The translations under genes were made by a program, and so were the position numbers. Under the pieces are notes generated by a model that ran no database searches, was not told the DNA's origin, and was given only the letters and a program-made list of their open reading frames with translations. This document shows, piece by piece, positions 5,649-10,455 of a stretch of 42,954 nucleotides of DNA. Source of the stretch: an uncultured Synergistales bacterium (GTDB lineage: Bacteria > Synergistota > Synergistia > Synergistales > Aminobacteriaceae); assembly GCA_905233215.1 (NCBI GenBank), contig CAJODC010000015.1, positions 1 to 42,954 of the forward strand, written 5' to 3'. How positions within the stretch are numbered: position 1 is the first letter of the stretch; every line of letters begins with the position of its first letter.

Positions 5649-6098
5649 ATGTTTGACAAAAAACTGAAAATTCTTGTCCTTCTCTCGGTGCTGGTCATGC
5701 CGATCTGTTCTTACGGTGCTGACATTTCCGTGATTGAGCGTGAAGCTATGATGATGAGAGTCGAACTGAACAGGCTGGGAAGCAATGACGATCCTTCCGA
5801 GAAAGAGGCCATTCTCAGGAAGATTGCTGACCGATGCAAAGGCACTGAAGAGGGCGAAGCTGCTTATTGGGATTTAGCCGACTTGTACCTTGACGGCTTT
5901 CCGTCCGAGATGCGTAAGGAAGCCTGCGAGATGCTTGAACTTTGTCTGCGTAATTATCCTAATTCTAGCCGTGCCGGTATGGTCAGGTGTAAACTTGCTG
6001 AACTCTATGACAATGGTAGCAAGAGACGTTCGGAACTGGTCAGGCTGGTGAAGAATGATTCGACATTGCCCAACGCTGTCAAGTCAACGCTGAATTGA
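5649..6098 (+). CDS. Small exported protein with TPR-like helical repeats
   Basis: The 149-residue product starts with a basic stretch and a hydrophobic core (LKILVLLSVLVMPICS) and a likely signal peptidase site after SYGA. An alternative reading of the C20 as a lipobox (VMPICS) is weak, since the consensus L-A/S-G/A-C is not met. The mature part is helical with TPR-like spacing (AYWDLADLYLDG, CLRNYPNSSRAGMVRCKLAELY), similar to YbgF/BamD-type tetratricopeptide segments. No specific family was recognised. GGAG lies 8 bases before the ATG. The last 20 bp overlap the convergent GNAT gene. Confidence 0.7.
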   Translation: MFDKKLKILVLLSVLVMPICSYGADISVIEREAMMMRVELNRLGSNDDPSEKEAILRKIADRCKGTEEGEAAYWDLADLYLDGFPSEMRKEACEMLELCLRNYPNSSRAGMVRCKLAELYDNGSKRRSELVRLVKNDSTLPNAVKSTLN

Positions 6099-7019: not shown

Positions 7020-8525
7020 ATGAAGAAGTTATTTGCGTTATTCCTCGTCGTTGCTATGCTCTCAGTAGCAGGCACAGCAATGGCAACAGTAACAGTCAGC
7101 CCTACTACGGTAACCGTAACAGTCGGGACTCCTGTGACCGTAACTGTAACCCTTTCACCTGACCATAATGGCAAAATGTCAGACCCTACGGCAAATGTTG
7201 ACTGGATATCAGTTGCGGCAAGCAGCGACAGCAAAACAGTATATGTCGCTACTATCAATCCGACAAGCTCAGTGTCTGCCGGCGATAAGAATGTTGAGTT
7301 CAGTTCGACCGAGAAGACGAGCGATGTTGCTGGTCACGCAGGCTGGACGACAACCGGGAAGCTCACTGTTACAGTAACCAACGCTTCCCCCAAGAAGATC
7401 GAGTACAACCAGCCTACTACTGGCGGAGAAGTGAAGAACGTCAAGGTTATCTCGAGCAATCTAGCAGTTGTGTTTACTCGTAATGCTTTTGCAGCGTCTG
7501 TGAAAGCGGCAGCTGCAAAAGTAGACGCCTTCTTTAAGAAGGCAGTTGAGGTAAAGACAGCGGTTGTCGCAGACCTCAGTAAAAAGCTCGGCGGTGCAGT
7601 TCCTGAAAATGCTGAAGTACGTGATGATACCAACATGACTGCGTACGAGAGTGCAAACTACACGGAAAACTCTACCTCCACGCAGAGCGTGTCAGTTGCT
7701 GATGCCAATTCCGACAACCTTGAGAAGGCAGCCGCAAGACTGAAGCTGTTGACTAACGATGACACCAAGAGAGCTATCGGTGTTATCCCTCCTTTCACAG
7801 TAAAGGCAGCTGGACTTCAGCCTATGAATTTGAGCGTTGACAAGACGTTCGCAGGCTACGAAGTCGGAATGAACATGGGTGCTTATGCGATTACTACTGC
7901 AAGCTCAGTGAGCACAGCGGCAGCACCGAACGGCGGCAACGAAGTCGTGTTCTTCAATAGCAAAGACGTTCAGGTTGAGAAAGTACCTACTGACGGTCAG
8001 CTTACAGCCATTGCGTATGTTGAACCCAACGTAGCGTATGAGCCTATCCTCTTTGTCGTAGTTCCCGCAGCGTCAGCAGACCAGTTCGATAAGGCTACCG
8101 GCACAACGTCAAAGGACGTAACAGTTGCTGACGAGGGTGTGGCTATTGATGCAGGACTCCTGGATCTTCTCTCGAAAGATCTCATAGCATGGGACACAAC
8201 TGGAACATACCGTCTCACATTGAAGGCCTTCAAAAACGGCGTGGCCCCTGAACCGGAGCAGAGCGGAACCGTTTACACGTGGGACATCGGCCTTAACTTC
8301 CCCGTCAAAACCGGAGGCTGGAGATTACATGCAGACGGCAAGACTTACAGCGGCGAATTTGAAGCCAGCGCAACCGGCATCGAAGCTACAACCAGCACTG
8401 ACGCGAAAGCAACGATTGACGTTTCAGACGCGGCTCTTTCCGTAGGAACGTACACAGTAACGTTAGGTGTAATTCCTGCCAGCTCAGACAGCAACACAGG
8501 AAGCGCAGCGAAGATGTCGGTGTAG
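7020..8525 (+). CDS. Exported surface protein, frameshifted before its Synergist-CTERM tail
   Basis: I place the start at ATG 7020, 12 bases after AAAGGAG; an upstream in-frame GTG at 6960 lies between promoter and RBS and is unlikely. The 501-residue product has a clear signal peptide (MKKLFALFLVVAMLSVAGTAMA). A valine/threonine-rich Ig-like N-terminal domain (VTVTVGTPVTVTVTLSP) follows. The central region, with alternating beta-type segments, is unrecognised. Translation ends at 8525 after AAKMSV. The -1 frame continues from about 8507 as SEDVGVGSSSGGC, a hydrophobic segment and RKK, stopping at 8609-8611. That is the pattern of the Synergist-CTERM sorting domain, so a single-base deletion around 8505-8512 seems to have cut the anchor off. 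Without it the protein may be released rather than processed at the surface. Confidence 0.8.
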   Translation: MKKLFALFLVVAMLSVAGTAMATVTVSPTTVTVTVGTPVTVTVTLSPDHNGKMSDPTANVDWISVAASSDSKTVYVATINPTSSVSAGDKNVEFSSTEKTSDVAGHAGWTTTGKLTVTVTNASPKKIEYNQPTTGGEVKNVKVISSNLAVVFTRNAFAASVKAAAAKVDAFFKKAVEVKTAVVADLSKKLGGAVPENAEVRDDTNMTAYESANYTENSTSTQSVSVADANSDNLEKAAARLKLLTNDDTKRAIGVIPPFTVKAAGLQPMNLSVDKTFAGYEVGMNMGAYAITTASSVSTAAAPNGGNEVVFFNSKDVQVEKVPTDGQLTAIAYVEPNVAYEPILFVVVPAASADQFDKATGTTSKDVTVADEGVAIDAGLLDLLSKDLIAWDTTGTYRLTLKAFKNGVAPEPEQSGTVYTWDIGLNFPVKTGGWRLHADGKTYSGEFEASATGIEATTSTDAKATIDVSDAALSVGTYTVTLGVIPASSDSNTGSAAKMSV

Positions 8526-8611
8526 GCAGTTCAAGCGGCGGATGCGCATCAATGGGATCAGTCCTCGCAGTGGCAGTTCTCGGCGCGTTCATCGCAGCTC
8601 GCAAGAAGTAG
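8507..8611 (+). pseudogene. Out-of-frame remnant: Synergist-CTERM sorting tail
   Basis: In the frame one base back from the gene above, this stretch encodes GSSSGGC followed by a roughly 17-residue hydrophobic run and a final RKK before TAG. Synergist-CTERM tails have a Gly-rich segment with a Cys, a transmembrane helix and a basic end, and occur at the C-terminus of secreted proteins in Synergistota. No start codon or RBS precedes it, so it is not a separate gene. It is best read as the displaced 3' end of the 7020 gene. Confidence 0.75.
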
Positions 8612-8651
8612 TACAACGCAGACAATACTACAATCAAGCAGTAATTTACAG

Positions 8652-8690
8652 CGTCCTCCTTGTTCAAGTGTGAACGGGGAGGGCGTTTTT
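8652..8690 (+). terminator. Rho-independent terminator
   Basis: A long 15-bp stem (8652-8666 pairing with 8671-8685, with three G-T pairs) and a 4-base loop are followed by five T residues. It lies after the displaced tail at 8611, so the transcript unit still includes the tail. Confidence 0.9.
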
Positions 8691-8709
8691 GTTGTGGTAG
8701 AATGGGACA

Positions 8710-8949
8710 ATGAGCAGACTTGAATACAAAGGTTATTACACTCACATTGAAATTGACTTTGATGATGAATTGTTCTACGGCAAAATTGATGGCATACGTG
8801 ATTTCGTAAACTTCATGAGCGACATCAAAGACGGTGTTGCTGGCATAGTCAAAGAATTTCACAGCGCAGTTGATGATTATCTCGAATTTTGCAAAGCGAT
8901 AGGAAAAGAACCCAATGTCCCGGAAGTTTTGCAGGAGGCAGCACTTTAA
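8710..8949 (+). CDS. HicB-family protein, orphan antitoxin-like
   Basis: The 79-residue product matches the HicB fold: an N-terminal YKGYYTHIEIDFDDELFYGK beta region, then GIRDFVNF and the hallmark VDDYLEFCKAIGKEPNVPE. HicB normally neutralises the HicA mRNA-interferase and represses its own operon through a C-terminal ribbon-helix-helix domain. Here the protein stops soon after the hallmark, so the DNA-binding part is absent, and no hicA gene adjoins. TAGAAT (8698-8703) sits only 6 bases before the ATG with no clear RBS, so a leaderless transcript is possible. It is probably a remnant or a stand-alone regulator. Confidence 0.75.
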   Translation: MSRLEYKGYYTHIEIDFDDELFYGKIDGIRDFVNFMSDIKDGVAGIVKEFHSAVDDYLEFCKAIGKEPNVPEVLQEAAL

Positions 8950-8982: not shown

Positions 8983-10455
8983 ATGAAGCACTATATATGT
9001 TTTGATGCCGGAACACAGAGCGTTAAAGTTGCGGTATACGATGAGGCAGGCGTTCAGGTTGCTGTTGACGTGAATCCAACAACGCTGAATTATCCTGAAG
9101 CAGGCTGGGTTGAAATGGACGTTGACGAGTATTTCCGTCTGGCTCTCAAGGGAATGAGACGCTGTGCCGGGATTATGCGTGAAAAAGGTCTCGACACATC
9201 ATCAGTCCGTTCAGTCATGGGAGACGGGATAATTTGCGGAATCGCTGGCGTTGACGAAAACGGAAAGGCCGTAACGCAGTACATCAATTATCTTGACTCA
9301 CGGACACAGGAAGACGCTGAGGCTTTGTCGGCGAAAAATCTTAACATCTGGGCAAATGAGACAGGAAACCCTGAACCTTTGTGTTTGTTCCCTGCGTTAC
9401 ATGCTCGTTGGCTTCTGAAAAATTCGCCAAACATCGGGAAAGTCAAAAAGTTCGTACACAATGCGCCCTACATTTTGATGAATCTTGCCGGATTGAAGGC
9501 CGATGACGCTTTCATTGACTGCGGAGCGATGTCAGGCTGGGGACTCGGCTACAATGTTGTCAAAAAGCAGTGGTCAGACGAACAGTTAGACATTCTCGGA
9601 ATCGACAAGTCATTGATGCCGAGAATCGTTAAGGCTTGGGACGTTGTAGGCGGATTGTCTCATGAATGCGCCGAATACACAGGCTTCCCCGAAGGAACTC
9701 CGATCTGCGCAGGAGCAGGAGACACGATGCAATCATTGCTGGCCTGCGGAGTTCACGAGCCGGGACACGCCGTCGATGTCGCCGGGACCTGTTCAATGTT
9801 CTGCATATCAACGGGCGGAATCGTTCCCGGTCTCAGCAAAAAGGGCAACTCTCTCATCTTCAACAGCGGTACTCTTCCTGACACTTATTTTTACTGGGGC
9901 TTCGTTCGGACTGGCGGACTCGCTCTCAGGTGGTTCAGGGATAACATCTGCAACAAGCCCGGCGATGATTCGTATTATGATTACTTGAGCGAAGGCGCGG
10001 AAAAATTATCAGGCTCAGAGGGAGTCCGCTTCCTTCCGTACCTGACTGGAGGCCCAAAAGGTATGGAGAACGTTCACGGCTGTTTTCTGAACATGGGAAT
10101 GAACACAAATCAATTCGTACTGTGGCGTTCCGTACTTGAGGCCATCGCTGGCGAGTATTCAGAGATTGCTGACAGGTGCAGGGAAGCTGGGACTCCTGTT
10201 GACAGAGTGATAATCACTGAAGGCGGAAGCAAATCGGCTTTGTGGAATCAGATTAAGGCTGACATGATTCGGGCTGAGACCGTAACGCTCAAGACAGGCG
10301 GTGCCCTTGCGACCAATGCTGTTACCGGTGCTTACGCTGTCGGCGATATTCCTGACATGGCCGGGAAAGTTCATGAAGTTTTGACTGAAACGGGGCATTA
10401 CATTCCGAGTGAAAAGAAACTCTCACTGCCTAAGCTGAAAGTTATAGGGGAATAG
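8983..10455 (+). CDS. FGGY-family carbohydrate kinase (xylulokinase-like)
   Basis: This 490-residue protein phosphorylates a sugar or polyol with ATP in the cytoplasm. The N-terminal phosphate-1 motif is ICFDAGTQSVKVAVYD, the sugar-contact region YPEAGWVEMD is typical of xylulokinase-like FGGY enzymes, and the C-terminal ATP domain has AGAGDTMQSLLACG and ITEGGSKSALWNQI. The substrate cannot be fixed from sequence; xylulose, or an unusual ketose, is likely. GGGAGG lies 8 bases before the ATG and a TATAAT at 8958-8963 may serve as -10 without a good -35. No sugar isomerase or transporter adjoins; a PfkB kinase lies 1.4 kb away on the other strand. Confidence 0.87.
   Translation: MKHYICFDAGTQSVKVAVYDEAGVQVAVDVNPTTLNYPEAGWVEMDVDEYFRLALKGMRRCAGIMREKGLDTSSVRSVMGDGIICGIAGVDENGKAVTQYINYLDSRTQEDAEALSAKNLNIWANETGNPEPLCLFPALHARWLLKNSPNIGKVKKFVHNAPYILMNLAGLKADDAFIDCGAMSGWGLGYNVVKKQWSDEQLDILGIDKSLMPRIVKAWDVVGGLSHECAEYTGFPEGTPICAGAGDTMQSLLACGVHEPGHAVDVAGTCSMFCISTGGIVPGLSKKGNSLIFNSGTLPDTYFYWGFVRTGGLALRWFRDNICNKPGDDSYYDYLSEGAEKLSGSEGVRFLPYLTGGPKGMENVHGCFLNMGMNTNQFVLWRSVLEAIAGEYSEIADRCREAGTPVDRVIITEGGSKSALWNQIKADMIRAETVTLKTGGALATNAVTGAYAVGDIPDMAGKVHEVLTETGHYIPSEKKLSLPKLKVIGE

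Follow-up and report, generated by a model that had tools for sequence, protein, structure and literature searches.

The window, which is the whole stretch of 42,954 nucleotides analyzed here, is one contig (G000:C15) of a 1.74-Mb draft genome assembled into 80 contigs. It carries a gene for a putative exported surface protein, situated between the genes of a second exported protein and of an FGGY sugar kinase, both of which were used as controls (Table 1). The body of the surface protein is open over 501 codons, and codon usage favors its own frame up to the break described below, with no further break. The distance between the surface gene and the kinase gene is approximately 370 bp in the window, including a 79-aa ORF, compared with approximately 110-260 bp in relatives. 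This small ORF resembles HicB by eye, while Pfam gave no match to it at an E-value of 1. Searches of the surface-protein body and tail against Pfam returned no match above the cut-off, a scan of IMG/VR gave no match, and structure prediction for the surface protein reached a mean pLDDT of 33 and a pTM of 0.23.

Table 1. Positions of the features of the surface-gene locus in the window.
Feature	Position	Strand	Remarks
149-aa exported protein	5649..6098	+	second control gene; precedes the surface gene in many relatives
Body ORF, predicted hypervariable exported surface protein, 501 aa	7020..8525	+	ATG at 7020, TAG at 8523-8525, before the sorting tail
Signal peptide MKKLFALFLVVAMLSVAGTAMA	7020..7085	+	cleavage site judged by eye
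Sharply diverged stretch	7104..8257	+	window vs. L036 1963-3203: dS 0.68, dN 0.35, 385 aligned codons
Frame-change zone, net -1	8500..8520	+	from codon usage; holds a 5-mer near-repeat (8502-8511)
Displaced Synergist-CTERM-type sorting tail	8510..8611	+	EDVGVG linker, GSSSGGC motif, hydrophobic segment, RKK, stop at 8609-8611
Terminator-like hairpin	8650..8691	+	17-bp stem, then T run; hairpin and U's at 8650-8687
79-aa ORF	8710..8949	+	between surface gene and FGGY kinase; homologous DNA elsewhere in other genomes of the genus
FGGY (xylulokinase-like) sugar kinase	8983..10455	+	syntenic marker and control; named from reading the sequence alone

The sorting tail and its reading frame

In the body frame, the surface protein ends with the residues SSDSNTGSAAKMSV. 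The sorting tail, EDVGVGSSSGGCASMGSVLAVAVLGAFIAARKK, is encoded at 8510-8608, in a frame that is shifted by -1 from that of the body and open from position 8420. The frame displacement of the tail is thereby confirmed: as a preliminary description of the locus had claimed, a tail consisting of GSSSGGC, a hydrophobic stretch, and RKK is intact at the DNA level, and it lies out of frame with the exported body, from which it is offset by a net -1; the body stops at 8523-8525. A codon-usage scan favored the body frame up to approximately 8500 and the tail frame from approximately 8515, with the best single switch at 8517. The zone of the frame change contains 'AGCGCAGCGA', a two-copy 5-mer near-repeat (AGCGC AGCGA). 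Homopolymers of 4 or more are absent from the region 8420-8530, in agreement with the same description, which had noted the lack of a long one.

Downstream of the tail, the RNA of the region 8600-8700, which contains the terminator-like hairpin, folds with -35 kcal/mol (z -4.4). Since the terminator lies beyond the tail and 16 of the 18 informative syntenic loci described below have an in-frame tail, the gene once included the tail, as had been proposed. An ungapped comparison of the window tail with its nearest relative revealed 7, 1, and 10 differences at codon positions 1, 2, and 3, respectively. The few changes at position 2 suggest that the tail was read as protein until recently and that the break is therefore young.

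At the DNA level, the tail shows the GGC with the invariant Cys, the hydrophobic segment, and the basic RKK end when aligned with 11 in-frame tails of the genus. Nine homologues of the body in the genus carry a tail of this kind at their C-terminus, in frame, for example GSSSGGCSAGSAVFALAVLGAFIAARKK in G030, and tblastn searches with intact relatives found body and tail in different frames of the window (for example L104, 75% over 32 aa). Because the in-frame homologues share the tail and because tblastn recovers body and tail in separate frames, the tail is not due to chance, and by homology it is a real Synergist-CTERM-type sorting tail. The assignment to a Synergist-CTERM profile, as implied by the preliminary description, stood for a genus-tail profile (A1), which scored 63 bits with the window's own row among its members, and failed for TIGR04564, to which the window tail alone scored 8.5 bits, below the curated cut-off of 22.5. 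One other protein of the same genome passes TIGR04564 with 26.5 bits.

The genome also encodes the putative sorting enzyme MrtS (G000:C36, L139 1258-1806), which matches NF040589 with 240.5 bits (cut-off 130) and is the sole CPBP-family match in the genome. A Synergist-CTERM sorting route is therefore predicted for this organism. To our knowledge, Synergist-CTERM processing is known by computational prediction only; a literature search found no paper on Synergist-CTERM and, for MrtS, unrelated ones only.

The surface gene in related genomes

Syntenic loci were defined among 43 genomes of the genus by a tail of at least 30 bits that precedes the FGGY kinase gene by no more than 400 bp, with adjacency taken from coordinates. 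Nineteen loci were found, including the window; in L108 the tail is truncated by a contig end, which leaves 18 informative ones. Of these, 16 have an in-frame tail, including L107 and L122, which reach a contig edge in frame. The two displaced tails are those of the window and of L115 (G033:C71), which belongs to another species. Both tails are shifted by -1 against a body that has an open ORF and a signal peptide. At first, second, and third codon positions, the L115 tail shows 3, 4, and 9 differences from its nearest relative and 7, 1, and 14 from L131, figures that speak less clearly for recent reading than those of the window tail.

Altogether, 52 tails of at least 30 bits were listed in the genus, of which 8 have short frames resulting from contig ends. 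Among the remaining 44 tails, there are 2 linker breaks (the window and L115) and 2 body breaks, while all others follow at least 243 open codons. One of the body breaks affects a 173-aa second copy in G010, in which the signal peptide is missing, and the other affects G004:C56 (334 aa). Order-wide, 92 genomes were searched and 150 tails listed; the 6 short-framed ones are all at contig ends, and none of the 144 tails kept has a short upstream frame. Given these counts, with a single locus supplying the only two good examples, displaced sorting tails are rare. Short-frame tails were also considered as a sign of many broken genes; this was rejected, as most are cut by contig ends.

The decayed copy in G010 (G010:C13, L106 5418-6786, reverse complement) lies directly downstream of an intact surface gene; it lacks a signal peptide but retains a tail, and may be a silent donor or else a pseudogene. 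The copy in G004:C56 (L137 4150-5833), with its break in the body frame, is an extra one located elsewhere in the genome, and its tail nearly equals that of the main copy (L100). Interior tails of less than 26 bits, outside the count of 44, were seen in L072 (G017:C276), in the other shifted frame, and in L069 (G015:C272), behind an earlier shift and an in-frame TAG.

Variation of the surface gene

One contig binned with another genome, G017:C389 (JAFSQO010000130.1; loci L013, L036, and L136), shares 98% identity with the window over 1.95 kb of flank. G017 has its own 149-aa gene (C180), with 69% DNA identity to that of the window, and its own FGGY gene, with 72%. Based on flanks of about 98% identity as opposed to about 70% for G017's own copies, the contig was taken as a stray one: it is probably mis-binned and comes from a different strain of the same species as the window, with horizontal transfer as the alternative origin. 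The comparison of L036 with the window shows that the first 84 coding bases, and with them the DNA of the signal peptide, are identical, that the sequences diverge abruptly from position 7104, and that identity returns in the final 45 bases (8258-8302). This contig, the only one that appears to come from the window's species, ends there, before reaching the tail. A synonymous divergence this high, enclosed by nearly identical flanks, suggests that alleles were exchanged and did not simply drift apart slowly.

A similar pattern is found between other relatives. L102 and L103 share 89% identity in the FGGY kinase and 100% in the tail, compared with 41% in the body. For L100 and L102, the values are 96% (kinase), 85% (signal peptide), 79% (tail), and 36% (body). 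Mean identities over 120 pairs were 81% for the kinase, 64% for the signal peptide, and 31% for the body; the mean for the tail was 55% over the in-frame-tail pairs, compared without gaps, which counts tails of unlike length low. The surface gene is thus hypervariable in its middle and conserved at its ends, and the data point to an exchanged cassette.

Discussion

Our results suggest that a recent net -1 mutation in the low-constraint linker has probably removed the sorting tail from an otherwise intact exported protein, leaving it without its anchor. With the body separated from the tail, ribosomes would stop at the TAG at 8523 and release a 501-residue product that has the signal peptide. 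Because this product would carry neither the Cys motif nor the membrane helix nor the basic RKK end, MrtS would have no substrate, and we infer that the protein is exported and ends up unanchored, either periplasmic or released. As a precedent, Ves proteins of Vibrio cholerae with a replaced GlyGly-CTERM are released to the supernatant (PMC13393428). Loss-of-anchor alleles might arise and be tolerated in a hypervariable, allele-swapping gene with conserved ends.

If instead the break were an error of assembly or consensus calling, the gene would in reality be in frame and the protein anchored normally. We consider this unlikely, though it deserves careful weighing, since the draft is fragmented and L036 breaks off inside the hypervariable gene where alleles converge, a setting for false assembler junctions. 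Strain mixtures can produce such junctions at hypervariable genes, an artefact that the control genes do not gauge, and the case rests on two broken loci, one of them being the window that prompted the question. However, the controls are in a single frame at 35 of 35 loci for the FGGY kinase (approximately 300 aa in most) and at 18 of 18 for the 149-aa gene, and in a second species (L115) a break of this class occurs at the corresponding position. With 2 breaks in 18 loci and none in the controls, Fisher tests that assume 110 bp of linker per locus gave p = 0.002, or p = 0.045 when the window was left out. These figures argue against a uniform assembly error, yet not against strain-mixture artefacts of the hypervariable gene. 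Taken together, we infer that the break is more likely a real mutation than an assembly error. A misjoin between paralogues was considered separately and rejected: a DNA search of the genome itself gave no second copy, and exact matches between the break region and the fetched loci were at most 24 bp long.

The preliminary description had raised the idea that the frame change switches the protein between an anchored and a released form, and this idea found no support in the features of the break. Slipped-strand changes in the linker could toggle the two forms by reversible phase variation, and the -1 offset at the same position in both broken species, the two-copy near-repeat at the break, and the hypervariable nature of the protein would fit such a mechanism. 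Nevertheless, the long simple-sequence repeat that sets the frame of phase-variable genes was not found at the break, where the 5-mer near-repeat is the only one and homopolymers of 4 or more do not occur; the linker repeats of in-frame relatives, such as PTPTPGPTPTP (L101) and RPTSPDT (L102), consist of whole codons and thus cannot switch the frame, and the order-wide count of 0 of 144 speaks against the mechanism as well. We regard phase variation as very improbable. Programmed -1 ribosomal frameshifting could yield a minority of anchored protein, since ribosomes slipping back by one base at any point of 8420-8522 would enter the tail frame. This was rejected as extremely improbable, because neither an in-phase slippery heptamer (XXXYYYZ, searched in 8420-8522) nor downstream structure was found. 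The RNA near the break is less structured than shuffled sequences (z +1.7), and 16 of the 18 syntenic loci are in frame without any shift. Hardly any more credence can be given to an ordinary pseudogene on its way to loss. Decayed copies do occur in the genus, namely the frame-broken second copy in G010 and the copy in G004:C56, yet the body in the window is open throughout, with the codon usage of its own frame maintained up to the single break. At this age, a pseudogene and a recent loss-of-anchor mutation are hard to separate.

An improbable further reading takes this fixed chromosomal site to encode a hypervariable antigen that swaps alleles, with the linker as a recurrent break point. Populations might then carry anchored and released forms side by side, as a heritable decoy or an anchor switch that works through Synergist-CTERM and MrtS; to read the frame break as such a switch is a guess. 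If the loss of the anchor is real, the window would hold a natural loss-of-anchor allele of a Synergist-CTERM system, marking a hypervariable surface locus in ruminant-gut-type Synergistaceae. Tail-less natural alleles of this kind would offer a direct way to find out if retention at the surface requires the tail.

With the Synergist-CTERM/MrtS system (TIGR04564 and NF040589, the latter a predicted glutamic-type intramembrane protease), the locus shares the Gly-Gly-Cys motif, the hydrophobic stretch, and the basic end of the tail, as well as the presence of MrtS in the genome and in-frame homologues bearing the tail. It differs in that the tail is out of frame and would not be translated with the body, and in its score below the TIGR04564 cut-off. 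Similar accidents are known in other bacteria. The invasin InlA of pathogenic Listeria is likewise a surface protein that is reported to be shortened, with the difference that premature stop codons cause the truncation. InlA truncations remove the C-terminal anchor. In the MYXO-CTERM system, a Cys-containing tail is likewise processed by a CPBP protease, the myxosortase MrtX (PMC11980579); this has been experimentally shown for TraA, whereas for Synergist-CTERM only prediction is known to us. In Streptococcus equi, a one-base deletion in fne causes the loss of the LPXTG anchor and yields a secreted product (PMC2654543), so that a small indel converts a surface protein from anchored to secreted. 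FNE differs from the protein described here in phylum, anchor, and sorting enzyme, and its conservation extends to all S. equi strains studied there (PMC2654543).
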